From positions 1 through 64,000 of the IMG/VR virus record IMGVR_UViG_3300001846_000277: DNA of 64,000 nucleotides; one strand, written 5' to 3'. Positions 17,238 through 54,393 of the stretch are shown here, piece after piece. The notes under the pieces were generated by a model. The model saw nothing but the letters and a program-made list of their open reading frames with translations. It ran no database searches and had not been told where the DNA came from. Numbering within the stretch: the stretch's first letter is position 1; each line of letters starts with the position of its first letter. The translations under genes and the position numbers were made by a program. This DNA comes from a virus.

Positions 17238-17989
17238 TATTTTATCCACTTTACTGATATATTTCTAGCCTGTGTACTGAAGCTAGGATAATTTATATTA
17301 TCTCTTACCTCGTAAACATTACCATTATAATCAATTGTGTCTGTATTATTAATATCTATAATTTTCCAATCAGGCCAACCTACCAAAAGTTTATGTTCAT
17401 CGCTTTGATTATGTGTGTATCCAGGTTTGCCTTTGCCTATACCTAACCCATATGTGATTTCTTCTTCGTCGGGTATTCCTAAAACTTTACGGAAATACCC
17501 TTCTGATCCTGGTTTAGTATGATTTTTATTAAAGGCAGTTACATAACCCAAACTAGCTGCACAAAAAGCAACTATGCCCATGCTTATACCTATACTTGTC
17601 AAAGAATTGTCTTTTCTATTTGGGTGATGATTTTCCTTACTTTTTCCGTCTCTTGTAAAATTCCTAATAGTGTCAGGCCATTTACTTGTGTAGAGGAAAT
17701 ATGCACTTGCTCCTACTTGAGGGTTTCTAACCATACAAGGTAATTGGTCTTGTGTGGTTTGATTATTAACTGGATATGTAAATCCCCAAGTATGTTCTAG
17801 TAGATCTTGTAAGATATTTTTATCGGTAATCACATAAACATTATAATACGCCTCGTGCTGTTTAGTGGGAGTATTTTGCGCAAGGTATACAAAGTGCTCC
17901 ATGTGTTCTTCAGGTATAACAAAATCATCCCAATTCCGTTGACACTTTTTAATTGTTTCAACATATGTTTTTTGTGCATTTATATCCAT
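17237..17989 (-). CDS. nitroreductase-like flavoprotein, about 250 aa
   Basis: The SIGISMGIVAFCAASLGY stretch followed by a loop matches the conserved FMN-binding helix region of the nitroreductase fold, and a later VLGIPDEEEITYGLGIG resembles its C-terminal flavin-contact region. The N-terminal segment before LPCMVRNPQ is variable. The start at 17989 has a GGAG site and overlaps the rSAM gene upstream by 10 bp. Such proteins reduce or oxidise substrates with FMN; in peptide and natural product clusters they act as oxidases. That role here is inferred. Confidence 0.6.
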   Translation of the reverse strand: MDINAQKTYVETIKKCQRNWDDFVIPEEHMEHFVYLAQNTPTKQHEAYYNVYVITDKNILQDLLEHTWGFTYPVNNQTTQDQLPCMVRNPQVGASAYFLYTSKWPDTIRNFTRDGKSKENHHPNRKDNSLTSIGISMGIVAFCAASLGYVTAFNKNHTKPGSEGYFRKVLGIPDEEEITYGLGIGKGKPGYTHNQSDEHKLLVGWPDWKIIDINNTDTIDYNGNVYEVRDNINYPSFSTQARNISVKWIK

Positions 17990-19005
17990 TCCGCTAACTC
18001 CGGTATACAATCTTGTAAATTATTTTTTAACAATAAATCTTGTTTATAAGTTGTTTCTTTAAGTTTATTAAATAATTCTTGGTTATAATTATAATTATTC
18101 AAATATTTTTCATTAGATGAATTAAGATATTTTTTTACATATCCTGTTGGTAAAGCATCTAATGTGAATTCTTTTGGCGAGAATATTTTGAAATCACTAT
18201 GATGTAAATCATATTCAGAACACAGTTCTTGGATATTTTTTATGTCGTGATAATTGTATGCTTGCACAGTTGTATGAACATAGGTATACAACTCACATTC
18301 TTTTTTTAATTCTTCCCATAGTTGTAAATTTTTTAAAACGTTATTCCAGTTACTATCTTGTCTAATATAATTGTTAACTGATCCTATTCCATCTATACTA
18401 TAACCTACAATATTTTTATCAAATGTTTTAAGTATATCAACATATTTATTAGGAAAAAGTGTAAGATTAGTGTTACAATAAAATTTGATTTTATTTGGTA
18501 ACGTTTGCATCCATTCAAATAAAATTTTAATTTCAGGTGTAATAAAAGGTTCACCACCAAGATATTTTATAACTTTTAGATTTTGTGTATCTATATCTTC
18601 TAAGAATTTGCTAAAATTTTCTATCTTAATAACTTGAATATTTAATGTGTCAGCCCATTTACTGCTACTGTCTGCCTTACACATTCTGCATCTTATATTA
18701 CAAGAATTATTGCAACTTAATTCAATATATTCTATTTTTGGTTTATCTGACTTACAATATACATCTACAACGTTTCTATAGCTCCTTAAATTTTGTAATT
18801 CTAGTTGTTCACAATGATTACAACCAGAGTCCCAACCATCTTCCATATTTTTTCTGATATTCTGCATATATGCAGAATCATAGAATTCTTTCCATGATAA
18901 ATTTGAATAGTGATATTTTTGTCTTTCTTTATAAAAGCAGCAAGGTGCATAAAAACCTTGCACATCTACATACAAATGGTTATAGAGAGCTTTACAATAT
19001 GGCAT
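17980..19005 (-). CDS. radical SAM protein with N-terminal twitch-type cysteine region, 341 aa
   Basis: The N-terminal region has PCCF (C22, C23) and a CNHC pair (C62, C65), the auxiliary cluster pattern of twitch-domain rSAM proteins. The core motif is C102-x3-C106-x2-C109 (SCNIRCRMC), binding the SAM-cleaving [4Fe-4S] cluster, followed by LGGEP at 149-153. A GYSIDG strand is visible further on. It is coupled to the rSAM gene upstream and to the nitroreductase-like gene downstream. The substrate is unknown; twitch rSAMs are peptide, lipid or sugar modifiers in different systems. Confidence 0.85.
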   Translation of the reverse strand: MPYCKALYNHLYVDVQGFYAPCCFYKERQKYHYSNLSWKEFYDSAYMQNIRKNMEDGWDSGCNHCEQLELQNLRSYRNVVDVYCKSDKPKIEYIELSCNNSCNIRCRMCKADSSSKWADTLNIQVIKIENFSKFLEDIDTQNLKVIKYLGGEPFITPEIKILFEWMQTLPNKIKFYCNTNLTLFPNKYVDILKTFDKNIVGYSIDGIGSVNNYIRQDSNWNNVLKNLQLWEELKKECELYTYVHTTVQAYNYHDIKNIQELCSEYDLHHSDFKIFSPKEFTLDALPTGYVKKYLNSSNEKYLNNYNYNQELFNKLKETTYKQDLLLKNNLQDCIPELAEWI

Positions 19006-20147: not shown

Positions 20148-21344
20148 TTATATTAACTCATACTTATGTAATTCTATTTCTTTAAAACTATGTTTCCAAT
20201 TTATGTTTCTAGCACAATCAAGGTCGTCTAAATAATTAATAAAAGTTTTTCCGTATTCTGGCCAGAGATTTTTTTCATTCATATGATTTAAATAGAACGG
20301 AACTTTTTTTGATTTTTTACCAAAGTTGTAGTTTTCTATCTTATCAGTAATAATCTTTTTTACAACATTTGGGAGGACTTGCGCACTCATATGCACTGGC
20401 CACTCAACGTGATTTGCTAATATAAACTCTATGTTTGGATAGTTCTTTTGCATAAAATCAAAAGTTTCTGTGAGATAAAACATACTTATGTTACTACATG
20501 TCCACTGAACACCTATATCAAAATTTGAATAATGCTTTGCATATTTTTGCATCAACTCAAGTTTTGTTTTGAATGTATTCCATTTAATAGGAAATCTAAA
20601 ATACTCGCCAGGTTCTTGGATTGCATCAAGGCTTAATCTTATGATTACACATTTAAAGTTTTTTAACTGTTCAAATATTTTTTCAGTTAACAGCGTTCCG
20701 TTGCTAACATATGATAAAGTTATATCTTTTGCATATTCAGTCTGACTAATATCTTGTATAAACTTATTGTGTTGTTTGTTAGCAAAAGGTTCGCCTCCTA
20801 AAAAATTAAAACGTTTTGTGTAATTTAAATTTTCTTTTATGTTGTCCCAGATAAAACTATCTTGTTCAATCCATTTGTTATCAATATCATAAAACTCTGT
20901 GTTAGGATATTTGTCTAACATTGCTTTATCTTCATTCCATTTGCTACTTGCACCTGTTCCGCAATGGATACATTTTAGATTACAAATTGTGCCTACTCTT
21001 ATATCTATGTTACTTGGATAATATGGCACACTACCATCTTGTGCTGTCTGTTCTAAAAGGTGTTCGTTGTTATCATAATGATAATAGTTTTCTTCTATAC
21101 GTTTACTGTTGCCTTTTAAACTTTCAACATATTCACAGCGTTTACAGTTTTCTGGCCAACGCCCTTCTAAAAACTCTTTACGTATATGTTTAAAATAGTC
21201 GTTATTCCACTCATTGGCAATACTACTACCTTTTAGTTTTACTTGTGCTTGTTTAACAACTGATTGATCAGCATATCCGCAAGTTCTCGGTCTTCCAAAC
21301 GTATTGGTGCTAAAATTAATCCACGGAAGTATACAAGGTTTCAT
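20148..21344 (-). CDS. radical SAM protein with N-terminal twitch-type cysteine region, 398 aa
   Basis: Auxiliary cysteines C4, C22 and the CKRC pair (C67, C70) precede the rSAM core C121-x3-C125-x2-C128 (CNLKCIHC). FLGGEPFAN and a VIIRLSLDAI strand follow. It overlaps the preceding SGNH gene by 4 bp. The C-terminal 150 residues are unlike those of its neighbours. The reaction is unknown, though the CNxxC core implies normal SAM cleavage chemistry. Confidence 0.84.
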   Translation of the reverse strand: MKPCILPWINFSTNTFGRPRTCGYADQSVVKQAQVKLKGSSIANEWNNDYFKHIRKEFLEGRWPENCKRCEYVESLKGNSKRIEENYYHYDNNEHLLEQTAQDGSVPYYPSNIDIRVGTICNLKCIHCGTGASSKWNEDKAMLDKYPNTEFYDIDNKWIEQDSFIWDNIKENLNYTKRFNFLGGEPFANKQHNKFIQDISQTEYAKDITLSYVSNGTLLTEKIFEQLKNFKCVIIRLSLDAIQEPGEYFRFPIKWNTFKTKLELMQKYAKHYSNFDIGVQWTCSNISMFYLTETFDFMQKNYPNIEFILANHVEWPVHMSAQVLPNVVKKIITDKIENYNFGKKSKKVPFYLNHMNEKNLWPEYGKTFINYLDDLDCARNINWKHSFKEIELHKYELI

Positions 21345-22036: not shown

Positions 22037-22041
22037 AAACA

Positions 22042-22070
22042 TATTTATATGCGCACTTATTGGCTAAGTA
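22042..22070. promoter_or_regulatory. divergent late-type promoters, leaderless configuration
   Basis: Minus strand: TATAAATA (22042-22049) lies 5 nt before the ATG at 22036. Plus strand: CTAAGTA (22064-22070) lies 5 nt before the ATG at 22076. The whole divergent gap is 39 bp. Confidence 0.55.
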
Positions 22071-22075
22071 TTTTT

Positions 22076-22918: not shown

Positions 22919-23896
22919 TTTTTTTGATCTGTCTTTTCGTTCTGCTGTATCAAACCCTGGAGCAATAACTTTTTTACCAGTTGAAGGAAGAGTGTATTCA
23001 AAGTTATTAAAATTTTCAAACACTCCCCTGCCTATACAAAAACACAGAGTAGGGTCTCTATGATCAGGATGAGGAGAAACTCCCCATCTTTCTAACATTA
23101 TATCTTGCCATCTGTCTATTACACTCTGCGGAATTGGTTTATCGGGTCCGCAGCCTATAAAACTAAAATCATATCCATAAGAGATTGTTGTTTCCATTAT
23201 GGCGCCGCCGTGAATTCCAATTGCTTGTAATTGATTATATAAAGAAAATTCTTTATTTCCTATAATCTGTGCAACATAAACAAGCGGAGCACTAGATACT
23301 GCAACCATATGCCTAATCGGAGACTTATTGTCATTAAGGAAAAAATTTTCAACTAAAAAGTCCTTAATATACTGATCATTTTGTTTCAGTTTAAACAATC
23401 CAAAATGTGTATCTAATTGAGACGGAGTAGACATAATAGTATTATCTATAAATGATTCCAGTTCAGATGGAATATGTATAGTGCTATCAAACATTACCAT
23501 GTTTCTACGCTGCTGCATAACTTCTTCAGTATAGAATAAGTCAGGTCCTTCTTCTATTATTGTTTTTAAAATAGAAATCAGTTCACATATTTCTTTAGTT
23601 TTAGCTGGTATGATTTTTACTAGATTTTTTTCCAGTAAATCGTAGATAGCAAATTCAACATCAATATTTTTTATTTGTCTTTTGCCTCTATGCCAAAATT
23701 TTGAAGCTATTAATCTTGTTGAGTCAGTTGTTGAATTAAACAAATCAGCAGATATAGAACTATATATGTATTCTAAATCTCTAATACATTTTTTATATTC
23801 ATTTGTTCTCGTGCTATATTCAGTTCTTATAATAGAAACTAAATTTTTAATTATAGACTCTTTGTGTCGCCTTAAATCATTGTATTCTTGTTGCAT
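22907..23896 (-). CDS. nitroreductase-like protein with helical N-terminal extension, 329 aa
   Basis: Residues about 1-110 form a long charged helical extension. The C-terminal part contains AIGIHGGAIMETTISYGYDF and a nearby FIGCGPDKP, comparable with the FMN-contact helix region of nitroreductase folds and with the protein at 17237-17989. I see no further diagnostic motif, so a nitroreductase-like fold is the best guess but not certain. It is the last gene of the leftward operon beginning at 32646 and overlaps the opposite-strand aminotransferase-like gene by 12 bp. Confidence 0.5.
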   Translation of the reverse strand: MQQEYNDLRRHKESIIKNLVSIIRTEYSTRTNEYKKCIRDLEYIYSSISADLFNSTTDSTRLIASKFWHRGKRQIKNIDVEFAIYDLLEKNLVKIIPAKTKEICELISILKTIIEEGPDLFYTEEVMQQRRNMVMFDSTIHIPSELESFIDNTIMSTPSQLDTHFGLFKLKQNDQYIKDFLVENFFLNDNKSPIRHMVAVSSAPLVYVAQIIGNKEFSLYNQLQAIGIHGGAIMETTISYGYDFSFIGCGPDKPIPQSVIDRWQDIMLERWGVSPHPDHRDPTLCFCIGRGVFENFNNFEYTLPSTGKKVIAPGFDTAERKDRSKKLFN

Positions 23897-24995
23897 AATT
23901 CCAAACTCTATAGAAACCTTTATTTAAATCAAAAACCGAAGTCTTACGGATTTTATCATCTAATTCTGTTTTTCTTTTAAATTTCTCAAAATATTCTTTG
24001 CTATATGTATATGTGCTTGCTATATTACTTATCTGTGTTGCAAAAGGATGATTTAAGGAATTTAAATATTCAATTTTTTCTTCTCTTATATGATCTGGTA
24101 TTGCTGATATCTTTAAAGGTATTTGCCCATATACTGGACTAATGTCTAAAGTATGTTCTGGAAATTGAAAAAAGTATTCAACCCATTCTTCTACATTCAT
24201 AAAACTATACGCTGTAAGCACAGGACGCAAACTATAACTATCTGTTAAATCTATAGTTTTCCAAAGATTTTTTTCTATTATTTTCCAGTTTGCATTAGTT
24301 CTTACATATTCTAATGTATTGCCTATTGCATCTAAAGATATATTAATGTGTAAATCTCTAAACTGTTTTATTCTATATGTCCATTCTTCTGGAACTGAAG
24401 AACAGTTTGTTGTATAACTTATCATAATATTTTCGTTATACTTGTTATCAATTAGGTAATCTAAAATTTTATATAACTTTTTATTAAAAGTAGGTTCACC
24501 TCCTAGAATAGCAAATTCTTTTAGATTGCTAAAATCAAAATCTATAACATCGTCTGTAGGTCTTTTTTCAATATAGTCATCTAGTTTACCTATCTTGATA
24601 TATTCTTCCTCAATAAGATTACTGCTATATGGACTACACATACGACATTTAAAATTACATAAGTTATCAGGTCTGTAATCAATTCTCCATACAGCGTCAT
24701 ACTGATTATATTGTTTTGTTTTCTTTTCTATAAAATTCCTCTGAGACTTTAAGCCTTTTGACTCTATGTGTATACACGCATCGCAGGAAGTTTGTAATTC
24801 TTCCATATTATGATCTAGCATATGTTTTTTTACTTGTGTTAAATATTCGCTATCTAAGTAGTCTTTTACTTTACCAGTAAATCTTTTTCCGTGCCATTCA
24901 CAACATGGACTTGCACCACCACCTTCATAAACACCACTGTATTGTATATTAGTCCACGGAGCATAACAAAATGGTTTATTGTTTAATTTCGTCAT
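23877..24995 (-). CDS. radical SAM protein with N-terminal twitch-type cysteine region, 372 aa
   Basis: The start is taken at 24995 (ATG); an upstream TTG at 25007 extends it by 4 residues. N-terminal cysteines are C10, C31-C32 (SPCCE) and C71/C74 (CDAC); the core is C113-x3-C117-x2-C120 (CNFKCRMC), then LGGEP. The N-terminus FCYAPWTN is typical of the twitch group in this window. It overlaps the next gene upstream by 20 bp. Function unknown beyond radical SAM chemistry. Confidence 0.84.
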   Translation of the reverse strand: MTKLNNKPFCYAPWTNIQYSGVYEGGGASPCCEWHGKRFTGKVKDYLDSEYLTQVKKHMLDHNMEELQTSCDACIHIESKGLKSQRNFIEKKTKQYNQYDAVWRIDYRPDNLCNFKCRMCSPYSSNLIEEEYIKIGKLDDYIEKRPTDDVIDFDFSNLKEFAILGGEPTFNKKLYKILDYLIDNKYNENIMISYTTNCSSVPEEWTYRIKQFRDLHINISLDAIGNTLEYVRTNANWKIIEKNLWKTIDLTDSYSLRPVLTAYSFMNVEEWVEYFFQFPEHTLDISPVYGQIPLKISAIPDHIREEKIEYLNSLNHPFATQISNIASTYTYSKEYFEKFKRKTELDDKIRKTSVFDLNKGFYRVWNYATRIQ

Positions 24996-26154
24996 AGTGC
25001 CAGCCAATTATTTTCCAGGTATTACAATCTCTATAAGAATCTGTCATTTCGATATGAGATTTTAGCATATCTAAATCATGCGGTTCTTTAGTATTTTGTA
25101 ATATATTAACTAATTCTTCTATTTGTTGTTGTTCTTCATCTGTGTAATCAACAAACATAGAACTTTCTATTTCTGCTACTACACGATCTCTTGCCCATTT
25201 AGGACTATTGTCTAGACTATACCAAGGTGCTCCATTAAGCCAACTAAAACCTATTTTAAACCTATCTTGATAATCTGTATAATCTTTAAACCAAATAATA
25301 CTATCGCACAAATTCATTAAATTTAAATTATGTGGAACTATAGCAAACTCGCATGTTAACCAATCATATTTTTTTAGTATGTTAATTTTTTCTATAGTAT
25401 CTTCCCATTTTAATGGCCAACGTAAATATTCGTAAAACTCTTTACCACTTCCGTCTATACTGTAGTTTATGTGTAAATGGTCAAATGGTTTTAATTTCTG
25501 TATTTGTTCTTCAGTAAAACTTCCATTTGTTGTAATATTAAGTCCCGGAAGTTTTTTGCCACTTTCGAGCAAAGCATCGATCATTCTATCAAAATGAACA
25601 TTTATAAATGGTTCGCCGCCTGTGATTTCAAGTTTGCGTATATTGTCTGCTCTGTCTACAATATCATTAATGATATTTCTATACCATGTTTTACTTTTTG
25701 ACCAATCGTGTTGCTTAGAAACAAGTTTTAGTAAATTAGGATCTTCTACAGTATCTTTCATTTCTTTATATTGCTTTTCTATAAGACTACTACGACTTGC
25801 ATTGCATATACGACATGCTGTATTACACTGATTACCAAAGGTGATCATAATATGTTCTATGCCATTATCGGGGTTATCTTCGTAATATGCGTTACGTTTT
25901 TGACGCATACTTTTTGCGCCGTTGTCTTCTTGTCGCCAGCAAAAATCACATCCACTAACACGCTCGCCTGAATTTAATCTACTTTTAAATTCTTTAAGCC
26001 AATCACTTTTTAAGTATTCTTCAAAACTTTCAACTTCTGGCCGCTCACCAACATATTGACAGCAAGGTCCAAGATTACCTCTACTATCAAAATGTATCTG
26101 TTTATGTGGTTCAGAGCAGTATGTATCTACATCGCTGCTTGTAATAAGCGCCAT
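24976..26154 (-). CDS. radical SAM protein with N-terminal twitch-type cysteine region, 392 aa
   Basis: C13, C31-C32 (GPCCQ) and C69/C72 (CDFC) form the N-terminal cysteine set; the core is C110-x3-C114-x2-C117 (CNTACRIC) and ITGGEPF follows. The N-terminus begins directly in the twitch region, with no additional domain. A GAGGA site lies upstream. It overlaps the 2OG gene upstream by 28 bp and the next rSAM downstream, so the three are coupled. Confidence 0.84.
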   Translation of the reverse strand: MALITSSDVDTYCSEPHKQIHFDSRGNLGPCCQYVGERPEVESFEEYLKSDWLKEFKSRLNSGERVSGCDFCWRQEDNGAKSMRQKRNAYYEDNPDNGIEHIMITFGNQCNTACRICNASRSSLIEKQYKEMKDTVEDPNLLKLVSKQHDWSKSKTWYRNIINDIVDRADNIRKLEITGGEPFINVHFDRMIDALLESGKKLPGLNITTNGSFTEEQIQKLKPFDHLHINYSIDGSGKEFYEYLRWPLKWEDTIEKINILKKYDWLTCEFAIVPHNLNLMNLCDSIIWFKDYTDYQDRFKIGFSWLNGAPWYSLDNSPKWARDRVVAEIESSMFVDYTDEEQQQIEELVNILQNTKEPHDLDMLKSHIEMTDSYRDCNTWKIIGWHYDEIKQ

Positions 26155-28520: not shown

Positions 28521-29149
28521 TAAGAAATCCGATTTATTTCAATATTTTCTTTATATAAACTATCAAAGAAAAATGAGTTTTTATTAAGCAAAAACCAGAT
28601 TGATGTATCTTTGATTAATACTAATTCTCTTTTATATTTATTTTTAGCTTCTAATACGTTTTTAATAACTATTGGATGTTCATCTATGAAATCATGTCCA
28701 GACATAATATTATTGTCTGTTATAAATTTATCTATTATTTTAATTTTTCTATTGTCGTGTGCTGCATCTAAATAAACAAAATCAAATGGAGTTTTTATTT
28801 CATAATTCTCTGCCTTTTGATGTAACACTGTAATGTCGTCGACAAAATCTTTGCATAAATCTAAAAACGAATAATAAGTTGTTTCAAATTTTTTTGATTG
28901 AGTTATTGCATTTTCAATTAATTCTTTGTTGCCTAATATTTTATTATCAGAATCTTCATACCAAAAGTCGTCAATAACTGTTAATTTTGAATTTTTTTGT
29001 TTATTATAGTAGTATACTCTTGATGTTCTACCATAATACGCTCCAATTTCAACTATATTACTAAAATCTGGAATAATTCTAGCAACTTTAGCCAATTGCT
29101 CACATTGATACTTGCTAGTGCTACCAGGATGATCGTTATAATCTATCAT
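28520..29149 (-). CDS. class I SAM-dependent methyltransferase-like protein, 209 aa
   Basis: IVEIGAYYGRTS is the glycine-rich SAM-binding strand-loop, and FDFVYLDAAHDN has the acidic end of strand 4, typical of the Methyltransf_24-like group. Start and stop overlap the neighbouring rSAM genes (TAATG at 28520). It could transfer a methyl group to a sugar or small molecule; the target is unknown. The motif set supports a Rossmann methyltransferase fold, not a particular reaction. Confidence 0.72.
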   Translation of the reverse strand: MIDYNDHPGSTSKYQCEQLAKVARIIPDFSNIVEIGAYYGRTSRVYYYNKQKNSKLTVIDDFWYEDSDNKILGNKELIENAITQSKKFETTYYSFLDLCKDFVDDITVLHQKAENYEIKTPFDFVYLDAAHDNRKIKIIDKFITDNNIMSGHDFIDEHPIVIKNVLEAKNKYKRELVLIKDTSIWFLLNKNSFFFDSLYKENIEINRIS

Positions 29150-30557
29150 CTGTTATATCCTTAAATATATCTTTCATTTCGGGAAATGTTTCAGCAAATG
29201 TAATGCCACGTTGCTTGTCACACAAATCCAAAAATTCTTTCATTTCGGGCAAGCGTCTGCTCCAATCCTCACTGTCCATAAAACTGAGTATGCCGTCTAA
29301 TCTTTTTATTCCATACTCTGCACTGCGGAATTGTTCATACGTAATTTTTCCTTTGTGCCAACTAGGAATACCAAGTTCCCAGTTTTGTTCCCACCACGGA
29401 TACCATGCTTCGTATTTTTCTCTAGTTTTTTCTTTAAACCATTTAGGCAAAACTTTTACGTTTAGATGTGCAGGCCAATACACAAAATGTTGACTAATGC
29501 CACCTGCACCAAATGGCCACATGTTTATTTTTCTATAACGTTGCTCTAGTTTCCATTGTATAAAATCTGGCAAGTAATGAATGTTGAGAGCTTGCACTGC
29601 GCAAGCAATAGTAACTTCTACATTGTCGCTAGTCTGTGTATCTAGAATACGGAACACTTCTTCTTGACGTTTCCATTTGCTTGGATAGCGTATGTAGTCA
29701 TTCATTTCCTTTATACTGTCTATAGAATAGTGAAAGCGCACTAACTTGAATTCTTTCCAAAGATCAAACAAATCTTCACGCCACTCAACACCGTTTGAAT
29801 TGTAACGTAATTCTAAGTCTTTTGCTAATCCTCTACGAATTGCTTCTTCAAGTATTTCATAATGTTCTTCAATAATAAGGCTTTCACCACCAGCAAAATA
29901 AATTTGCTGCATACTTGGCATTTGTTCATAAAACTGCTGCCAAAACACAGGATTTTGCTTGTGCCAATTGTAGCTACTACCGTTGGTGCTGCCTTTGTTT
30001 TCCCATTGCATTATTTCTTTTAATGATTCGTTTTTTACAGCAGGAAATATTGCTTTGTAATCTTTAATCCAACCCGAACTATCATGTGGGCTACACATTA
30101 CACATGCTAACTGACACTTGGTGCCAAAACGCAAATCAATATATGCCAAGTTAGGAGGCACACTTCCATCTTCGTTAGTATCTTGTAGTATCTTATCTAC
30201 ATCAACACGTTGGCTCCAGTAGTGTGTTTCCCACATGCGTTTGCTACGATGTCCTGCTGCTTCTTCTTTGTAGCATTTAAGACAACTAGGCGGCTTTTCT
30301 CCGTTGAGCATTTGCTTGCGAACGTTCTTCATATAATCGCTATTCCAAGCAGTTTGGAAATCACTTACATTAAGATTGTTTGGTCTTCCTTCATCATCTT
30401 TAAGGATACCAACTTGCCCACCGTGTTCTTTGTCATTGGTAGGTCCAACTGAACTAGCATTTGCTGTGCAGCAAACTCTCATACTACCATCTGGTCTTGT
30501 GCTTAGATGCACCCAAGGTAACAAACAAAATGTATCTGAGGGATAATTGTTATTCAT
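29136..30557 (-). CDS. radical SAM protein with N-terminal twitch-type cysteine region, 473 aa
   Basis: The N-terminus FCLLPWVHLSTRPDGSMRVCC holds C11, C29 and C30; CLKC supplies C92 and C95; the core is C148-x3-C152-x2-C155 (CQLACVMC). FAGGES replaces the usual GGEP. The architecture is the same as the protein at 53014-54393, its closest relative here. An ATAAGTA-type promoter core lies 5 nt before the ATG, inside the end of the upstream gene. It heads the lower part of the rSAM operon. Confidence 0.84.
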   Translation of the reverse strand: MNNNYPSDTFCLLPWVHLSTRPDGSMRVCCTANASSVGPTNDKEHGGQVGILKDDEGRPNNLNVSDFQTAWNSDYMKNVRKQMLNGEKPPSCLKCYKEEAAGHRSKRMWETHYWSQRVDVDKILQDTNEDGSVPPNLAYIDLRFGTKCQLACVMCSPHDSSGWIKDYKAIFPAVKNESLKEIMQWENKGSTNGSSYNWHKQNPVFWQQFYEQMPSMQQIYFAGGESLIIEEHYEILEEAIRRGLAKDLELRYNSNGVEWREDLFDLWKEFKLVRFHYSIDSIKEMNDYIRYPSKWKRQEEVFRILDTQTSDNVEVTIACAVQALNIHYLPDFIQWKLEQRYRKINMWPFGAGGISQHFVYWPAHLNVKVLPKWFKEKTREKYEAWYPWWEQNWELGIPSWHKGKITYEQFRSAEYGIKRLDGILSFMDSEDWSRRLPEMKEFLDLCDKQRGITFAETFPEMKDIFKDITDDRL

Positions 30558-32690: not shown

Positions 32691-33019
32691 TGGACTATTA
32701 TCACATTTGGGCAGATCCGGTAGAAGGAACTGACGCTAAAGATTTTGCAATAAAAATGAAACGATTCCTAGATCAACTTGTCAAAATGAACAAGATGGAA
32801 TCATATAAACTTACACGTATGAAATTGGGATTTCGAAGTATGGATATTCCAGAATTTCATATTATGATGCAATTTAAAAATATGCAACAGTTAGACAATG
32901 CAATGACTGCTGTGTTAAATGATGAAGAAAAAATAGAAGATGCACATGTCGGCTTTAATCAAATGGTAGATATTGAAACAATACAACATGCTTTATACAG
33001 GGACTATCCAGATGAGTAA
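32690..33019 (+). CDS. small protein of DUF6614-like type, 109 aa
   Basis: A soluble alpha/beta protein opening with DYYHIWADPVEGTD and a long helix (residues 18-35), with a later beta strand (FHIMMQFKNM). The pattern fits a small dimeric ferredoxin-like fold, and I recall a marine family of this kind (DUF6614); that name is tentative. It has its own leaderless late promoter, and its stop overlaps the amidinotransferase start, so it may act with that enzyme. Confidence 0.65.
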   Translation: MDYYHIWADPVEGTDAKDFAIKMKRFLDQLVKMNKMESYKLTRMKLGFRSMDIPEFHIMMQFKNMQQLDNAMTAVLNDEEKIEDAHVGFNQMVDIETIQHALYRDYPDE

Positions 33020-43396: not shown

Positions 43397-44092
43397 ATGG
43401 TAATTGACGGAGTTTACATCCCCCTTAAAAGAAATTGGAATAGAATTGGCATCAGTCTAAGTGGCGGTGCTGACAGTGCTTTGCTGGCTTACTTTGTGTT
43501 GAGTAATACAAACGCTGATATCTACTTTATCACACAGGTGCGTATGTGGAAAACACGCCCTTGGCAACGTTGGGTTGCTAGAGATGTAGTAAGTTGGTTC
43601 CGTGAAAAGTTCCATAATCGCATTGAACACATAGAAGGCTTTATACCTCCCGAAATGGAAGAGCCACATACAACATTTATTACTGACGAATATGGACAAA
43701 GTAAGCCTGGTAACAGGATTATACTGCGAGCTCACAATGAATACATTGCACACCTACACAAACTTGACGCATGGTATGCTGCTGTGACACTTAATCCAGA
43801 TGAAAAGTTTGAAGGTGCTCCTGAGGACAGAGAATATGCTAGATTGCCTGCCGAAACAAAACATATGGGTGTAACAGTGTGTCATCCTTTTAGTATGGTT
43901 CGTAAAAATTGGATTATAAAACAGTATGTTGATTATGAAATTGGCGAACTGTTGGAAATAACACGTAGTTGTGAAGGAGAATTTGAAGGGCTAGACTATA
44001 CAACATACAAACCTTATCAACATGTGCCATACTGTAACGAATGTTTTTGGTGTAAAGAACGTGAATGGGGTATAGCTAATGCATCCAAGTAA
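43397..44092 (+). CDS. QueC-like PP-loop ATPase, 231 aa
   Basis: LSGGADSALL near residue 21 is the PP-loop that binds ATP in amide- or nitrile-forming ligases. A C-terminal TRSCEG and PYCNECFWCKERE give four cysteines arranged like the zinc site of QueC, the 7-cyano-7-deazaguanine synthase. The length (231 aa) also fits QueC. No other preQ0 genes (FolE, QueD, QueE) are visible here, so it may serve another adenylation chemistry. It has its own early-type promoter and heads the rSAM genes that follow. Confidence 0.75.
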   Translation: MVIDGVYIPLKRNWNRIGISLSGGADSALLAYFVLSNTNADIYFITQVRMWKTRPWQRWVARDVVSWFREKFHNRIEHIEGFIPPEMEEPHTTFITDEYGQSKPGNRIILRAHNEYIAHLHKLDAWYAAVTLNPDEKFEGAPEDREYARLPAETKHMGVTVCHPFSMVRKNWIIKQYVDYEIGELLEITRSCEGEFEGLDYTTYKPYQHVPYCNECFWCKEREWGIANASK

Positions 44093-45338
44093 AACTTTTT
44101 GTTTACACCCTTTTACAGGTCTTGCTACCAGAGAAGACGGTGCAATCAAAGTATGCTGTCGTAGTCAACCAATTGGCTGGATACAAGATGAAACATTGGA
44201 AAGTGCATGGAATAACAAAAACATGCTTAGAGTTCGTGAGCAAGTATTAAATAATGAAATACCAGCCGAATGTGTTCCTTGCTTTGATTTAGAAGCACAG
44301 GGTGTAGAAAGTTTAAGACAAAGACATATAAGAGACAGTTTTCCTGATGCACGTATAAACTTGTATCCTGATGCATTAGACAAACTCAATGATGACTATA
44401 CCATGCCGTTTGAGTTTCCTACTATTGAGATAAAAATTAACAACTTGTGCAATCTCAAGTGTAGAATGTGCAATCCATTAGACAGCACACAGTGGAAAGA
44501 CTGGGAAGAAGTAGAACAGTTTTATGAGGCAGAAGACAACTACTTAGTGGATGCTGTGCGCAAACTAGGATTAACACGAGCACCATACATTGGCTTGTTT
44601 GAAGATAGTGCAGAGTTTTGGAGCAATCTTGAAAAATTGCTTCCATATTTCCGCAGAATTGATTTTGCTGGTGGCGAACCACTGATGGATCCTAGTCACT
44701 ATCGCATTTTAGATATGTTAGCACCATACGGCGAAAACATTGAAATAAAGTATGCTACAAACGGCACAGTGACGGGTATAAAGGGCGGAAGAACCATACA
44801 CGACTATTGGCCTAAGTTTAAAAACGTGGTCGTAAATGTAAGCATAGACGGGCTACACGATGTGTATGAATACATTAGAGGCAATGGTAAGTTTGAAGAA
44901 GTGGAAGAAAATGTCAAAATCTTTAAGAGCTTTCCCAATGTTAAATATGTTGTAGGTGCTTGCACTGTCCAAGCAGGTAATGTTTTACAATTGCCACAGA
45001 TTATCGATTATTTTTTAAACACAATGGGCATTGTGTTTTACTCGCACAGAGTAAACTATCCAAATGTTTTAAGTGCTCAGTGTTTACCAAACAAATACAA
45101 GCAAAAAGTTGTAAAAGAATTAATTAAAATTAAAGAAGATGTAAAAAAATATCCTATTATGAGTTTAAACGATAAGTTACTACCTATTACATTACGACAA
45201 ATTGATGATAATATTAACTTTCTATTAGCCAAGGACTTGTCTCACAAATGGCCACAAACTGTAGAGTTCAATCGTAGATTAGACAAAAGTCGTAATCAAA
45301 CAAATTTTGAAGATTTAATTAATGATTACGGAAATTAA
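44079..45338 (+). CDS. radical SAM protein with N-terminal twitch-type cysteine region, 419 aa
   Basis: C8, C26-C27 (KVCCR) and C65/C68 (CVPC) precede the core C124-x3-C128-x2-C131 (CNLKCRMC); FAGGEP follows. N-terminal TFCLHPFTGLATREDG is typical of the twitch group and related to the proteins at 29136 and 53014. It starts 14 bp before the end of the PP-loop gene. It is the first of a cassette of four rSAM genes (twitch then three SPASM-like). Confidence 0.84.
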   Translation: MHPSKTFCLHPFTGLATREDGAIKVCCRSQPIGWIQDETLESAWNNKNMLRVREQVLNNEIPAECVPCFDLEAQGVESLRQRHIRDSFPDARINLYPDALDKLNDDYTMPFEFPTIEIKINNLCNLKCRMCNPLDSTQWKDWEEVEQFYEAEDNYLVDAVRKLGLTRAPYIGLFEDSAEFWSNLEKLLPYFRRIDFAGGEPLMDPSHYRILDMLAPYGENIEIKYATNGTVTGIKGGRTIHDYWPKFKNVVVNVSIDGLHDVYEYIRGNGKFEEVEENVKIFKSFPNVKYVVGACTVQAGNVLQLPQIIDYFLNTMGIVFYSHRVNYPNVLSAQCLPNKYKQKVVKELIKIKEDVKKYPIMSLNDKLLPITLRQIDDNINFLLAKDLSHKWPQTVEFNRRLDKSRNQTNFEDLINDYGN

Positions 45339-47150: not shown

Positions 47151-48202
47151 ATGCAATAAAATTAACCAAACCCGAACCTATGATGGTTACATGGGATATC
47201 GGTAGAAGATGTAATTTTGATTGTAGTTATTGTGAAAGCACACGGCACAATACTTATAGTCCTCCTACAAGTTGGGCTAATTTGTGTGCTACGCTAGATT
47301 TTATAAAACAATACACAAGATTATATAATCAACCCAATGCTAACATTGGATTTACTGGTGGCGAACCAACTGTAAATCCACGCTTCTGGGACTTTGTAGG
47401 AAAAATAAACAACGAAACTGAATTTCAAGTTGGTATGACCAGCAACGGCACATGGCCAGAAAAGCATATTGATTTTATTAAACAAAACTTTGTAGGCATA
47501 ACACTAAGTTATCATGCCGAAGCAAATCTTTTTAGCAAAGAACGCACAATTAACAATGCAATCTTAATAAAAGAAGCAGATATGTGGCTTACTGTAAATG
47601 TAATGATGCATACCGACCACTGGGATGAATGTGTTGAAGTTCACGAAAAACTCAAATCACACGGTATAGACAGCAAACCTACCATGATTGGTGACGGCAA
47701 CTTAGGTGTCACAGATTGGTTTGAGGACACAGAAGGTGTTCAGCGTAGGACCAGTCATCCATATACCAAACAACAACAAGAATGGTATCTACGAGAAAAA
47801 GGTTTGCCCACAAATATAGTGGAAAAAATTACTGAAGGCTATGAATTACCAAGAGGCTGCTGTGGTGCTAGAAGTATAGAAGGTAGTTGTAATGGCTGTT
47901 GGCAGAATGTAGAAGCAGTGAACACCAACTTCAAAGACTGGTATTGTGCTGTTAACCGTTATTTCCTACACATTGATCAACACACAGAAAAAGTATATCA
48001 CCATCAAACCTGTCAAACCAGTTTCAGTGGCAGGAAAGGACCAATAGGCAGACTCAGCAATCCTGATGGTATACTAAACTATGCTTATGAAAACAGAGAT
48101 AGGATCATACGCTGCCCGCACAGTAGATGTGGTTGCGGTATGTGTGTTCCTAAAGCTAGGTCACTTGATGTTTTTCAACAAATTGTTGGCTCGGGTTTGT
48201 AG
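47141..48202 (+). CDS. radical SAM protein with extended cysteine-rich C-terminus, 353 aa
   Basis: C24-x3-C28-x2-C31 (CNFDCSYC), FTGGEPTVNP, then a long C-terminal region with GCCGARS, GSCNGC, WYCAV, TCQTSFSG and a final CPHSRCGCGMC. It closely matches the protein at 51067-52116 in domain order. The start at 47141 overlaps the previous stop by 10 bp; an ATG at 47105 in the same frame lies further inside the previous gene. Its 3' end overlaps the opposite-strand rSAM by 47 bp. Confidence 0.83.
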   Translation: MEVDAIKLTKPEPMMVTWDIGRRCNFDCSYCESTRHNTYSPPTSWANLCATLDFIKQYTRLYNQPNANIGFTGGEPTVNPRFWDFVGKINNETEFQVGMTSNGTWPEKHIDFIKQNFVGITLSYHAEANLFSKERTINNAILIKEADMWLTVNVMMHTDHWDECVEVHEKLKSHGIDSKPTMIGDGNLGVTDWFEDTEGVQRRTSHPYTKQQQEWYLREKGLPTNIVEKITEGYELPRGCCGARSIEGSCNGCWQNVEAVNTNFKDWYCAVNRYFLHIDQHTEKVYHHQTCQTSFSGRKGPIGRLSNPDGILNYAYENRDRIIRCPHSRCGCGMCVPKARSLDVFQQIVGSGL

Positions 48203-49202
48203 TAAGATTGCCACAGGTTCTAGCACAAGTATATAATTTGTATGTAGTCCAGTAGCGTTTCCAAACGCTTGTATATCCAGGCTTGCTGATAACTTGTTTG
48301 ATGCTTTGGTTGCGTAAATTTGTGTTGCCTAAGTCTGCTATCAAAAACTCATATTGACTTTTGATTTTTTGTTTTGCTTCATAAAATGGGTCTTGCCTAA
48401 TGTGATAGTTGTAAGGTATGCTGGCTAAAAAGCAGCAAGGCATCAAATCTAAGTGTGCGTCTATGTAAACTTCATGTTGCTTTTTTGCCCAACAGTCTAT
48501 TACGCTTGCTTCTACTAGATCTGGTATTTGTTCAGGGTCAATAGGTTGTGTGGGCGTGTGTGGTTCTAGTGTGTCTATAACATATCCTAGATTGTTTTTT
48601 ACTGAGAAGCTGTTTTCAAAAGCAAATCTACTGCTGTCTTTCATAGTGAAATATTTAAATCCATAGTATTTTGCGACTTCTTGTGCTGCTTTTACTTGAT
48701 CAGCGTTGTGCTTGAATCTTATCATACTCCATTCTGCTGTGCCACCGGCATTAATAAATGTTCTAGCATTGTTTATGATTTTGTTGTAGTCAGTGTTGAT
48801 CCTATATCTACTGTGGGTATTGGCTAATCCGTCTATGGCAAAAACAACTTTGTGTTCTGCGGGCAAATGTTTTGGCAGGTCTTTCCACCAACGTTCATTT
48901 CGTAAACTACCATTGGTGTGTATGTCGATATAGATATCATCATCCTTTACCCAGTCTAACATTTTAACCAAATGAAAGTTTAGCAACGGATCACCAAAGT
49001 TGCCACAGAACGTAATTTTTTCAATTTGTCTCTTGACTTCTTCGTCAAAAACCTGTATAAAGTCGTTAAAGGTCCAGTCTGCTTCACGTAACAAAGGATT
49101 TTGTATGCCGCCATGATAGTTCCTGCTACACATAGGGCATTGTGCTTGACAGCGATTTGATATTTCTATGTGGACGCTTTTGAGATTTGTAAAACTAAAC
49201 AC
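48156..49202 (-). CDS. radical SAM protein with cysteine-rich C-terminus, 348 aa (GTG start)
   Basis: C18-x3-C22-x2-C25 (CQAQCPMC), CGNFGDP in place of GGEP, then MPCCFLAS and a CARTCG end. Paralogue of 30566-31567 and 31567-32646. It begins at GTG, 4 nt after a TATAAATA core, so its mRNA would be leaderless. It is a single-gene leftward unit facing the rightward cassette. Confidence 0.82.
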   Translation of the reverse strand: MFSFTNLKSVHIEISNRCQAQCPMCSRNYHGGIQNPLLREADWTFNDFIQVFDEEVKRQIEKITFCGNFGDPLLNFHLVKMLDWVKDDDIYIDIHTNGSLRNERWWKDLPKHLPAEHKVVFAIDGLANTHSRYRINTDYNKIINNARTFINAGGTAEWSMIRFKHNADQVKAAQEVAKYYGFKYFTMKDSSRFAFENSFSVKNNLGYVIDTLEPHTPTQPIDPEQIPDLVEASVIDCWAKKQHEVYIDAHLDLMPCCFLASIPYNYHIRQDPFYEAKQKIKSQYEFLIADLGNTNLRNQSIKQVISKPGYTSVWKRYWTTYKLYTCARTCGNLTTNPSQQFVEKHQVT

Positions 49203-51119: not shown

Positions 51120-52116
51120 TTCGTGCTTTAGGCGCACATATACCACACCAACAACTTGATTTTTTACAAACTATGCCGCGATTGTGTGCTGATTCTAACA
51201 TAGCATCTGGATCGCTCAAATTGCCAATAGGTCCTACACTGCCTGAATAATTCATCCTACAGTCTTTGTTTGTAAAAACTTCGCCTGTGTTTTGTCTAAT
51301 ATACAAAAAATGATCTGCTACACTACAATGCCAGTTTTTGAATCTGTTGTCAACACGTTTGGTATCACAGCCGCCGGCACACAGCGTTTTGCCACCGCAA
51401 CAGGCTCTGCCTTCAGCACTGAGATTCAGTCCTTTTACCAACGCATGAGCAATTTTGTCTTTTATACCAACTCTGCGGCCCAACAAATATTCTGCTTGTT
51501 CAGCAGTATAGTTCCAACGCATGTCCAACCAATGATGGTCAATCTGTCTTGGTAGATGTGGTATGTGATAGGCTTTACACCATTCAATCATTTGAACACA
51601 GTCTTCCCAATGTCTTGGATCCATCATGATGTTTACACAAAAGTTTTTGTCCTTGCCTTTACAATACATGATGTTTTGTCTAACCATGTCTTTTTGTTTT
51701 TGGGTAGCACTGGCATGATAGCTTATTGTGTAATAGTCCACAAACTCTGATACTCTGGTCCACTGTTTTACGCCAACTACAGCATTGGTTATAAATGCTA
51801 TGCCCATATACCAATCGTATTTTTGTCTTTTGAAGTTTATCCATTTCAGTATATCAACTATATGTGGATGGAATAGACTTTCACCACCTTGTATGTTTAA
51901 ATTGGCTTGCCTGGCTGATAGAGGACGTTCTGCCATCTTGCGATCAACATAGCGAAATATAAAATCCACAGTCTCATTACACTCGCCTAGTCCAGGATGT
52001 TCTGTTTTATTGTCATGACCATCGCCGCAATACGCACAATCAAGATTACATTTCAATGTGCTTTCCCAAGCAACTTGAAATATCCTGTCATCCTTTGGTA
52101 TTAGTGTATCAAACAT
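51067..52116 (-). CDS. radical SAM protein with extended cysteine-rich C-terminus, 349 aa
   Basis: C23-x3-C27-x2-C30 (CNLDCAYC) with QGGESLFHP in place of GGEP. C-terminal clusters ACCGGKTLCAGGC, WHCSV, DCRMNYSG and CKKSSCWCGIC parallel the rightward protein at 47141-48202. A GGAG site precedes the start. It is the last gene of the leftward operon from 57901. The reaction is unknown. Confidence 0.83.
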   Translation of the reverse strand: MFDTLIPKDDRIFQVAWESTLKCNLDCAYCGDGHDNKTEHPGLGECNETVDFIFRYVDRKMAERPLSARQANLNIQGGESLFHPHIVDILKWINFKRQKYDWYMGIAFITNAVVGVKQWTRVSEFVDYYTISYHASATQKQKDMVRQNIMYCKGKDKNFCVNIMMDPRHWEDCVQMIEWCKAYHIPHLPRQIDHHWLDMRWNYTAEQAEYLLGRRVGIKDKIAHALVKGLNLSAEGRACCGGKTLCAGGCDTKRVDNRFKNWHCSVADHFLYIRQNTGEVFTNKDCRMNYSGSVGPIGNLSDPDAMLESAHNRGIVCKKSSCWCGICAPKARTKSQFDAMMADLNSQNQ

Positions 52117-53017
52117 GTGCTCTCCACTTGGTGGTTATTGTTTCGCCGCTACATGGACAAGTGTATTTACTACATTTTACAGGTTTGATTTCAATATCGG
52201 ATAAATCGTAGATGTTGTAGCCGAGATCAGTTCCGCAATTGCCGCCAACATTGCCCTGTCTATCTATTTTTACCGTATCAACACCTAAATTACACTGCCA
52301 ACCCTCAAAGTGATTTAGATCATTTACCACAAAGTAGTTGTCGTCTGTGTGTGTTTCGCCGTCAATGCTGAATTTCGTTCTTGGCTTGCGTTGAACTTCT
52401 TGATACCAGTCCATATTAGGATATTGCTTAATTGGATCACGCACATACTCAAGTTGTTCCTCGTTGTAGCGATGTTTGCCGTCATACAAAACAGTCTTAG
52501 CAAGCACTGGAAAGAGCTTTACACCGCCCGTTACACGGTCTACAAGCGTCTTACAGCGTTCAAAGTGTAAAGGATCCATCAACACGTCAATATTTGTTTC
52601 TACACGATAATCGTATAACAGTTCAGCAACACTGAGACAATGAGCAGGGTCGCCTGATTCATGATGTAGACTTATGTGGACAACATCAAAACAATGCCAA
52701 TGTCTTTTCCACCAACTGATACTTTGACTAGCATTGGTGCTCAAGCATATTTTTATATCATGTGCCATTTTAAGTGTGTTACACAATCTTGGCAAGTGTT
52801 TCCACAATGTAGGCTCACCGCCTATAAGATACAGTCTTGTAGGTCTATCGTGTTGTTTGATATATTTTAGCAGTGCTGTTTCTAAACGATCTACTGAAGG
52901 CCAACGCACTGTGCCTTCGTTAGCACCTGGAAAGCAATAACCACACTGGTAATTACAAGTGTTGCCCAAATCTAATTCAATGACAAAGTCAGTGTCGTAG
53001 TTTTCAATACGCTTCAT
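52109..53017 (-). CDS. radical SAM protein with cysteine-rich C-terminus, 302 aa
   Basis: C21-x3-C25-x2-C28 (CNYQCGYC), IGGEPTLW and a late cluster (WQCNLG; GNCGTDL; CSKYTCPC). Parallel to 45322-46266, with the same GxN-CGT-type spacing. It starts just before the end of the upstream twitch rSAM gene, and no ribosome-binding site is obvious, suggesting translational coupling. Confidence 0.83.
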   Translation of the reverse strand: MKRIENYDTDFVIELDLGNTCNYQCGYCFPGANEGTVRWPSVDRLETALLKYIKQHDRPTRLYLIGGEPTLWKHLPRLCNTLKMAHDIKICLSTNASQSISWWKRHWHCFDVVHISLHHESGDPAHCLSVAELLYDYRVETNIDVLMDPLHFERCKTLVDRVTGGVKLFPVLAKTVLYDGKHRYNEEQLEYVRDPIKQYPNMDWYQEVQRKPRTKFSIDGETHTDDNYFVVNDLNHFEGWQCNLGVDTVKIDRQGNVGGNCGTDLGYNIYDLSDIEIKPVKCSKYTCPCSGETITTKWRAHV

Positions 53018-54393
53018 AACAAATGTGCCAATTCAGGAAATACTGCTTTAGCATTTACTCCTCTAATAGCATCAAGTTTGTTTACATACTCTCGAAATCC
53101 TGGCAGCATATCACTACGGTCTTCTGCGTCCATGTGATTCAATATTGCTTCCCAGCGTCTCCAGCCATAAGGATTATGTTCCCAAAAGGTAGAGTCCGTT
53201 GTCCAATGGTTATACAAGTAGTCTTTGAATTTTCGAAACAATTCACGTATTTCTGTTTTGTCCTCTTTGGGCAATATTTGTATGCTCAAAAACGTTGGTA
53301 TGTATAGTAGGTGCATGTTCACTAGACCGCCGCCTGCTTTTACGCCTCGAATTTCTTCTGTATTAACTTTTTTAAAATTCTGTGATATTTTCCAATGTAT
53401 GAAATCTGGCAAATGTTTTATGTTAAAAATTTGTATAGCAGTAGCAATACTTGGACGTATGTTGTCTGGTGTATTATCCAGCATGTGTAAATTGCGTTCT
53501 ACTGTATCCCAATCTGTAGGATAACGTATGTAGTTGTTGCGTGGTCCAGCAGCGTCCATGCTGACACCTACTTTTACTATTTCAAAATGACTCCACAGAT
53601 CAATTAAATCTTTGTCAACCAGTATACCATTTGTATTGTAGCGTAGACGTATACTTTTGTTATATCCTTGTCTAACAATTTCTTCAATAAACTTTTTGTG
53701 TTCAGCAATCATCAGTGGTTCGCCGCCAGCAAAGTATACTTCACGTAGATTAGGTATTTGTTTGTATAAGTCGTCCCAGAATATTTCTTGTTCATGCCAT
53801 TTGTTGTTGAAAGCAGATTTGTCCCACTGCATTTGTCTTTTAACTTCTGGATCTTCTAACTGTGGCTCTAATACTTTCCAGTCCTTTACCCACTTACTAC
53901 TGTCATGTGGTGAACACATTACACACTTGATATTACAAGTGTGCCCAAGGCGCAGGTCTAAATATTGTAATTCTTCTTTGTAGTATCCATTTTTGTGTGT
54001 TTCGTTTAATAAATTTTGTATATCAAGACCACGTTCCATCCATGTTCCTGTTTCCCACACACGTTTACTTACTACACCTTTTGATTCTTCAGCAAAACAT
54101 TTGCTACAACTTGCAGGTATCTTGCCTTCCATCATTGTGCGCCTTACACCACGCATGTATTCGCTGTTCCATGCTTCCATAGGAGATGTTGTCGCAAAGT
54201 TTATATGCTGTCCGCTATCGTCTTTTACAATACCCACTGTATGATCTGTGCCTGCTCCGCTGGCATTAGCACTACAGCATAGTCGCATATCTCCGTTAGG
54301 CCGTGTTGCCATGTGTATCCAAGGCAAAGCACAGAAAGTTTCTGTTGCTTCTGCTTTTAGTCTATTGTTGAATAAATCTAAAAAATCTTTCAT
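53014..54393 (-). CDS. radical SAM protein with N-terminal twitch-type cysteine region, 459 aa
   Basis: C21, C39-C40 (RLCCSANASGAG) and C96/C99 (CSKC) precede the core C153-x3-C157-x2-C160 (CNIKCVMC); FAGGEP follows. It is a close paralogue of 29136-30557 (same RLCC/RVCC-SANAS segment and length). It is followed by two rSAM genes, reproducing the order seen after 44079. The reaction is unknown. Confidence 0.84.
   Translation of the reverse strand: MKDFLDLFNNRLKAEATETFCALPWIHMATRPNGDMRLCCSANASGAGTDHTVGIVKDDSGQHINFATTSPMEAWNSEYMRGVRRTMMEGKIPASCSKCFAEESKGVVSKRVWETGTWMERGLDIQNLLNETHKNGYYKEELQYLDLRLGHTCNIKCVMCSPHDSSKWVKDWKVLEPQLEDPEVKRQMQWDKSAFNNKWHEQEIFWDDLYKQIPNLREVYFAGGEPLMIAEHKKFIEEIVRQGYNKSIRLRYNTNGILVDKDLIDLWSHFEIVKVGVSMDAAGPRNNYIRYPTDWDTVERNLHMLDNTPDNIRPSIATAIQIFNIKHLPDFIHWKISQNFKKVNTEEIRGVKAGGGLVNMHLLYIPTFLSIQILPKEDKTEIRELFRKFKDYLYNHWTTDSTFWEHNPYGWRRWEAILNHMDAEDRSDMLPGFREYVNKLDAIRGVNAKAVFPELAHLL

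Follow-up and report, generated by a model that had tools for sequence, protein, structure and literature searches.

What does a virus do with eighteen radical S-adenosylmethionine (rSAM) enzymes? The question is raised by a 64,000-nucleotide stretch of viral DNA (the window), which comprises bases 1–64,000 of the 71.7 kb IMG/VR virus record IMGVR_UViG_3300001846_000277. The original prediction was that 18 rSAM genes occupying about 20 kb form part of a phage-derived island for multistep tailoring. The island is real, does not reflect chance, and is functional; amidinotransferases, 2-oxoglutarate (2OG) oxygenases, SGNH-like proteins and sugar enzymes are present and the genes are under purifying selection, in keeping with that prediction. 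As to its role, we see about an even chance that it is a host-recognition (tail-fibre) island of a jumbo T4-superfamily phage, with a set of enzymes that together make or remodel an unusual glycan, most likely containing amino- and guanidino-sugars, on the surface of the infected cell or on the virion fibres. Genes are named below by their lower coordinate.

The Radical SAM Gene Set

All 18 predicted reading frames are present in the window at their reported positions (summed length about 20.1 kb), and Pfam and NCBIfam searches identify every one as a radical SAM protein. The cluster is larger than first claimed. Together with five proteins encoded at 64,972–70,958 of the record, 23 of 23 proteins scanned singly match PF04055, giving a total of 23 rSAMs in the record and a cluster that extends to at least 70.96 kb. 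The whole-record PF04055 search returned 22 of these; it missed 31567, which was recovered by NCBIfam and by the single-protein PF04055 scan. A chance origin of the CxxxCxxC set is excluded, because the motif occurs in 0 of the 57 other proteins of the record and shuffling all 80 record proteins yields a mean of 0.26 motif-bearing proteins (maximum 2 in 200 shuffles).

Three sequence classes can be distinguished in addition to a single B12 enzyme: A1, with an N-terminal twitch region (11 proteins); A2, short with a C-terminal Cys cluster (8); and A3, with a C-terminal cluster of the C-CC-CxxxC type (3). As predicted, seven window proteins are of the twitch type, since 17980, 20148, 23877, 24976, 29136, 44079 and 53014 score 196–422 bits against the NCBIfam model NF033640 (N_Twi_rSAM; curated cut-off 170 bits), a model whose name carries no function. 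The remaining eleven window rSAMs do not reach this cut-off. The predicted structure of 29136 is poor (pLDDT 63.5), and no Foldseek match was found for it at E ≤ 0.001. The expectation of one cobalamin-binding-like protein was also borne out: PF02310 matches 1 of the 23 rSAMs (1.4e-8), taken to be 27054 from the hits of B12-rSAM NCBIfam models to this protein (up to 71.8 bits, below their cut-offs). As to the proposed SPASM-like ends, PF13186 is matched by 7 of the 23 rSAMs at E ≤ 0.01 (17980 among them); the remainder have C-terminal Cys clusters, recognised by eye in the A2 and A3 types.

The short rSAMs weakly match prokaryotic-viperin and QueE models, and FolE- and QueE-like genes lie outside the island in relatives, which would suit nucleotide or nucleic-acid chemistry such as the making of chain terminators, as by viperin, or the modification of DNA with 7-deazaguanine-type bases. 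Neither identity was accepted, however, as the scores are far below the cut-offs (prokaryotic viperin, NF038283, at most 48 bits versus 180; QueE, 7-carboxy-7-deazaguanine synthase, at most 36 bits versus 206–260). Furthermore, one such enzyme would leave 23 genes accompanied by glycosyltransferase (GT)-like and sugar enzymes without explanation, and we consider nucleotide chemistry very improbable. The QueE-like proteins of two relatives (G050_069, 44,611–45,510; G046_030, 21,667–22,563) both lack the third cluster cysteine (CNFRCMNF), and a FolE-like gene adjoins.

Virus Lineage and Position of the Island

Relatives of the VWA gene are found at no fewer than 80 IMG/VR loci (71–97%). A 170 kb relative, G050, encodes a T4-type portal (PHROG 213) and a baseplate wedge, and this portal shares about 50% identity with its counterparts in the jumbo phages Phosso, Atu_ph07 and PA5oct. 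Judged by these proteins, the virus is a jumbo-type T4-superfamily phage. The MoxR-type ATPase 2304 is likewise about 50% identical to proteins of PA5oct-like jumbo phages. No tRNAs that might hint at a host occur in the window or the relatives scanned. Because 8–22 rSAMs are carried by 12 of the 14 records (each 38 kb or longer) that were picked by VWA, a marker unrelated to rSAM, rSAM islands are a trait of this lineage. Another 43 IMG/VR records contain 1–20 rSAMs each, but this sample is biased because an A3-type rSAM was the marker used to pick it.

A survey of gene order in other virus contigs found the same island position in eight spanning records (G015, G020, G050, G053, G054, G057, G058, G062). 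In each the rSAM island lies between a VWA/Mtd_N-type fibre and a fibre_gp176 array, which is followed, where the contig reaches, by gp177, a giant gene (~4,500 amino acids) and a gp6-type baseplate wedge. In the cultured phages Atu_ph07 and Phosso, small rSAM clusters sit immediately next to homologs of these fibre, gp177 and giant genes. The island spans at least 61 kb, and its right border is outside the window. Its genes overlap or abut, with 821 of 61,571 bases between 9,930 and 71,500 outside called genes; 509 of these bases belong to an SGNH-like gene absent from the open reading frame calls. A domain had been proposed to be common to 6381 and the fibre-like 39399 within the island; a motif of about 35 residues is indeed present in both (pairwise E 0.002), but a full shared domain is not.

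A hypervariable island with tail fibres in the structural/tail region resembles the host recognition cluster (HRC) of pelagimyophages, which is rich in fibres and GTs and contains rSAM cassettes (PMC7029224). That cluster belongs to SAR11 phages of ordinary T4-like size, holds rSAMs as occasional cassettes, and lies between VrlC and gp14, whereas the present island runs from the VWA/Mtd_N-type fibre to the fibre array, giant gene and baseplate wedge. The island is therefore HRC-like and distinct from the pelagimyophage HRC by position.

Conserved Core and Exchanged Blocks

The rSAMs 18992 (A2core), 29136 (A1core) and 31567 (A3core) form a conserved core trio. At ≥45% identity, each of 18 records has one copy of A2core; at 45% identity, A3core is a single-copy orthogroup in 16 records and A1core groups with 53014 in 18. 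Over 14 aligned rows, identities are 83–90% (A2core), 67–88% (A3core) and 61–91% (A1core). A 74-amino-acid protein (35989) and a methyltransferase-like (MT-like) protein (36200) stand beside 31567 in most records. The former is predicted to be all-helical (pLDDT 86); it has no family match and no match in BFVD, and its only PDB matches were to helical proteins of designed origin and, weakly, to antibodies.

The non-core rSAMs are exchanged in blocks and evolve under purifying selection. The block 44079–54995 is common to G003, G050 and G062 and in part to G017 and G057, the block 64972–71500 to G050 and G062, and parts of 20148–26154 to G049. Values of dN/dS for the rSAMs are 0.02–0.12, similar to those of MoxR and VWA, but are rough as many synonymous distances are near saturation. 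Recent tandem duplication was rejected, since paralogs within the phage are 20–42% identical, whereas identity to orthologs from other phages is above 90% (up to 93%). Three relatives encode a tryptophan-halogenase-family protein within their rSAM island or next to it (G050, L175:7768–9180; G062, 73386; G016, 1866).

Much of the island is strain-specific, and a variable insertion site might in principle gather genes that share no pathway, or the record might join phage and bacterial DNA. Against such a passive collection, the same junctions and blocks recur in independent contigs, the orthologs are under strong purifying selection, and the three-gene core persists across the lineage and recurs in bacteria. 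The repeated synteny in independent contigs rules out a chimera, one of the outcomes that would have undone the original prediction, and passive accumulation appears highly improbable.

A Chromosomal Counterpart in Bdellovibrionota

When bacterial genomes were scanned with two of the twitch proteins as queries, 16 loci were recovered. The core trio occurs in one locus in Bdellovibrionota contigs of up to 937 kb (L240–L246, L248, L249), and L250 holds two of the three core rSAMs. Genes for a GT2-like family are near in 7 of 10 bacterial loci and MT-like genes in 5 of 10. Each genome carries 0–3 GT2-like and 1–2 MT-like copies (one strong MT-like copy in each of 10 trio-bearing genomes), and the chance that a single copy falls within 10 kb in a 4 Mb genome is near 0.5%. 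A2core is 57–68% identical to Bdellovibrionota chromosomal orthologs and A3core 40–51% to proteins of their loci; chromosomal orthologs of A1core 29136 were also found. The trio-bearing genomes contain 16–37 twitch-rSAM matches each. The trait is patchy in the phylum, as A2core was detected in 12 of 192 sampled genomes, seven of them already known from the twitch-protein scan. None of the Bdellovibrionota loci examined contains the 74-amino-acid protein, and no fibre genes were recognised in the bacterial trio loci.

In the A2core tree the phage proteins form one clade (97/84) beside the bacterial diversity, and the simplest reading would be a single entry of A2core into the sampled phages. 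Consideration of these results suggests, tentatively and at somewhat less than an even chance, an undescribed three-rSAM system in Bdellovibrionota chromosomes (twitch A1, short A2 and A3, with GT2-like and MT-like partners). Jumbo phages would have captured it once and elaborated it into islands of at least 20 exchangeable rSAMs, allowing modular rewriting of surface glycan chemistry in host recognition.

Several further loci were noted. One region of a 917 kb contig (G066:C1:745000-775000; L267–L269) is an island in a Bdellovibrionota chromosome where about 16 rSAMs are packed into 30 kb; it holds an amidinotransferase relative and a pyridoxal phosphate (PLP)-type gene, and its flanks read as housekeeping rpoD, dnaG and rpsU. 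Bacterial locus L244 contains an epimerase gene and, by eye, AsnB- and GT2-like genes. Two loci binned as archaeal (Thermoplasmata) or Neisseriaceae (L239, L251) lie on phage-like contigs that are likely misbinned, and L251 carries the 74-amino-acid protein.

Sugar Enzymes and the Nature of the Substrate

Sugar chemistry is the best-supported part of the proposed mechanism. The catalytic motif of 61089, HCCTLD, aligns with HCATLD of the StrB1 structure 1bwd, and full-length similarity argues for a StrB-type enzyme; its match to arginine:glycine amidinotransferase (3e-27) is weaker than that to StrB1, an enzyme of streptomycin biosynthesis (1.1e-52). An epimerase/4,6-dehydratase and a DegT aminotransferase are encoded no more than five genes from 61089, with putative GT genes between. 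The DegT-type protein is also short in G050. Similar company is kept by rSAM genes elsewhere: amidinotransferase and nucleotide-sugar transferase genes in phage CP220, a heptose/GT locus around a cyanophage rSAM, and GT-like genes with the twitch rSAMs of Vibrio K566. The twitch-type enzyme BtrN acts on an aminocyclitol, which fits a glycan substrate and is no test of it.

In the proposed pathway, the epimerase/dehydratase and DegT aminotransferase would provide amino-sugar nucleotides, and 61089 would transfer an amidino group from arginine. GT-like proteins may then assemble the glycan. The twitch/SPASM-type rSAMs, with an auxiliary Fe-S cluster, could carry out radical oxidation, epimerisation or dehydration on sugar units, while 27054 might C-methylate them, and methyltransferases and 2OG oxygenases would tailor the glycan further. 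MetK, encoded by 6 of 26 records, may supply SAM in some relatives. The likely gain would be altered adsorption: the infected cell could be concealed from competing phages, or the surface of the virion itself could be made variable.

A number of findings weigh against this pathway, and the softest step is the assignment of core families as GTs, for which sequence similarity is weak. The Pfam support for the GT2-like family is one marginal hit (PF00535, 0.09 in one member); the family with the NNRxHxHR motif (NNR family) has no Pfam or PDB match, and we infer its GT function. MT-like 36200 matches no Pfam family, and PDB profile searches with all three families gave nothing convincing. Characterised SPASM enzymes act mostly on peptides, and the Asp/Asn-hydroxylase-type oxygenases and nitroreductase suit peptide chemistry equally well. 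Additionally, no export function of the Wzx, Wzy or ABC type was recognised in the genes scanned, and MetK is missing from half of the records longer than 100 kb.

The same peptide-directed features could mean that the rSAMs are maturases of phage tail-fibre or baseplate proteins, introducing crosslinks or epimerised or hydroxylated residues that stabilise or diversify the receptor-binding apparatus, with GTs decorating the same proteins. Fibre genes on both flanks and the fibre-like 39399 inside the island point this way, as do the typical action of SPASM/twitch enzymes on peptides, the oxygenases and nitroreductase, and the tryptophan-halogenase-family proteins of G050, G062 and G016. However, the trio also resides in bacterial chromosomal loci in which fibre genes were not recognised, GT or sugar genes are among the rSAM company in four phage lineages, and the StrB-like amidinotransferase points to aminocyclitols or amino-sugars. 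Protein maturation is the main rival to the glycan pathway and is regarded as rather unlikely.

Less likely again is that one or more small ribosomal peptides are matured and set free in the course of infection, to act for instance on bacterial competitors, in the manner of ribosomally synthesised and post-translationally modified peptides (RiPPs). The twitch/SPASM architecture would suit RiPP chemistry, and two proteins count in its favour, the conserved 74-amino-acid protein beside core rSAM 31567 and a T/S/D-rich protein of 118–120 amino acids that adjoins a twitch rSAM in G046 and G050. The RiPP reading is lowered by the lack of room for a precursor, given the few non-gene bases described above. 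No adjacent precursor-peptide gene was found, nine bacterial trio loci contain no conserved intergenic small reading frame, and no peptidase/ABC export pair was recognised. The 74-amino-acid protein, the only precursor candidate in the island, is phage-specific and has a predicted ordinary helical fold. Of the substrates originally put forward, virion fibres and surface glycans thus both remain, with the evidence leaning to glycans, while an ensemble of peptides is disfavoured.

Two further observations were made. Several degenerate repeats can be seen by eye in 37101–39326 before the GT2-like domain, and self-BLAST detected none. A second small locus is present outside the island in relatives, farther left than the window's record reaches (L172–L173, G050 35,004–42,734; L191, G046 22,500–30,600); it encodes GT-like, epimerase-like and PLP-type proteins, the T/S/D-rich protein, a twitch rSAM and an amidinotransferase, with MetK in G050.

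Other Features of the Window

Features of the window are collected in Table 1. The subtilase-family protein is kept in three relatives (57–68%), while the strain-variable segment that follows has a near-identical copy in the same-species record G046 only. Relatives of the PLP-type protein 22049 are found at further rSAM loci in phages and bacteria, and the amidinotransferase-family protein 32973 has a relative within a chromosomal rSAM island.

Table 1. Gene features along the 64,000-nucleotide window.
Position	Strand	Feature	Evidence
76..5093	+	Phage backbone: 5'-3' exonuclease-like, MoxR-type AAA ATPase 2304, VWA protein 3493	Lineage anchor by synteny
6381..7943	+	Fibre, Major tropism determinant N-terminal domain; left island border	PF18454 8.8e-13; place kept in relatives
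7954..9933	+	Subtilase-family protein between fibre and island	PF00082 1.3e-31
9930..17249	-	Strain-variable segment: TauD-type and Asp/Asn-hydroxylase-type 2OG oxygenases, SGNH-like proteins, fatty-acid desaturase	
17237..18010	-	Nitroreductase-family protein	PF00881 8.1e-7
17980..19005	-	Twitch-type rSAM (A1)	NF033640 196 bits
18992..20113	-	Core rSAM A2core, short, C-terminal Cys cluster	Ortholog identities
20148..21344	-	Twitch-type rSAM (A1)	NF033640 294.7 bits
22049..22918	+	PLP aminotransferase-like protein	Weak NCBIfam valine-pyruvate transaminase match 5.2e-7
23877..25007	-	Twitch-type rSAM (A1)	NF033640 215.4 bits
24976..26154	-	Twitch-type rSAM (A1)	NF033640 215.1 bits
27054..28520	-	B12-binding rSAM	PF02310; B12-rSAM model hits below cut-offs
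29136..30557	-	Core rSAM A1core, N-terminal twitch	NF033640 422 bits
30566..31567	-	rSAM, A3 type	PF04055
31567..32646	-	Core rSAM A3core	PF04055; ortholog identities
32973..34196	+	Amidinotransferase-family (pentein) protein, HCxTxD motif	HsvA 4.3e-9, SxtG 3.7e-6, StrB1 4.5e-5, C-terminal region only
34675..35142	-	GNAT-like protein, weak ATE_C similarity	PF04377 1.5e-4, below cut-off
35082..35996	-	Short rSAM (A2)	PF04055
35989..36213	-	74-amino-acid helical protein, conserved, phage-specific	16 records, 65-82%
36200..37141	-	MT-like core companion	Motifs; annotated weak homolog
37101..39326	-	Large 741-amino-acid protein; residues 515-739 GT2-like domain	Family-profile match 5.8e-39
39399..41255	+	Fibre-like protein within island	Repeat-rich by eye; short motif common with 6381
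43397..44092	+	PP-loop (SGGxDS) protein	Motif; weak TilS-type match
44079..45338	+	Twitch-type rSAM (A1), swapped block	NF033640 322.8 bits
45322..46266	+	Short rSAM (A2)	PF04055
46254..47150	+	Short rSAM (A2)	PF04055
47105..48202	+	Short rSAM (A2), extra Cys	PF04055; motif listing
48156..49202	-	rSAM, A3 type	PF04055
51067..52116	-	Short rSAM (A2), extra Cys	PF04055; motif listing
52109..53017	-	Short rSAM (A2)	PF04055
53014..54393	-	Twitch-type rSAM (A1)	NF033640 394 bits
54986..57011	-	Two members of putative GT family (NNR family)	Family alignment; GT function inferred
56990..57931	-	Nucleotide-sugar epimerase/4,6-dehydratase	PF01370 1.1e-37; TIGR01181 8e-31 (below cut-off); UDP-glucose 4-epimerase structures 2.7e-26
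57955..58557	+	Short DegT-type sugar aminotransferase, 200 amino acids	PF01041 1.7e-18; LegC/PseC-like
61089..62126	+	StrB-like (inosamine-phosphate) amidinotransferase	1bwd StrB1 1.1e-52, residues 18-344

Relation to Known Systems

The claim that no described phage system has such a density of rSAM genes did not hold, as CP220/CPt10, a TARA genome and the pelagimyophage HRCs all precede it, and 12–14 rSAMs within 27–34 kb are reached in other IMG/VR records. The Campylobacter phages CP220 and CPt10 have 11 and 12 rSAMs, with a swapped five-rSAM cluster that includes an amidinotransferase (Timms et al. 2010, PMC2853527); 11 were also recovered from CP220 here. These phages resemble the present virus in being T4-related, in their many rSAMs, in a swappable cluster with a glycine-amidinotransferase-type gene, and in the presence of nucleotide-sugar transferase genes and a location near baseplate-type genes. 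They differ in carrying half as many rSAMs, with sequences distant from those of the window (27% identity, E 3e-7). The environmental genome TARA_ERS488813_N000010 is a marine T4-like genome with 12 rSAMs and Fe-S genes (Nishimura 2017, PMC5332604), but its paper treats Fe-S assembly and describes no island or core set.

Atu_ph07 (Agrobacterium) and Phosso (Sinorhizobium) share the portal similarity and the placement of rSAMs beside the same fibre/giant-gene array, yet have four PF04055 matches each per genome and no orthologs of the window's core. A conserved protein of about 300 amino acids in the rSAM cluster of these phages (L237:17119–18009, Atu_ph07 gp170; L238:16415–17335, Phosso) is a possible substrate. 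The Bdellovibrionota islands are alike in that the core trio shares a single locus, accompanied by GT2-like and MT-like genes, in genomes with numerous twitch rSAMs, and unlike in being chromosomal and in the divergence of A2core. We found neither the trio nor the Bdellovibrionota islands described in the literature searched, which did not extend to subscription papers and preprints. The new points are the trio held in common with Bdellovibrionota and the fixed position of the island among fibre genes.

If the favoured glycan pathway is correct, a lineage of large phages would carry more rSAM enzymes than we found described for any phage, with a core common to some Bdellovibrio-like bacteria and a chemistry aimed at cell or virion surfaces. 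The NF033640 twitch family would gain a testable context with GT-like and MT-like partners, and the CP220 puzzle would become one case of a general pattern. Phosso, Atu_ph07 and CP220 are cultured models in which gene removal could reveal the roles of these enzymes.

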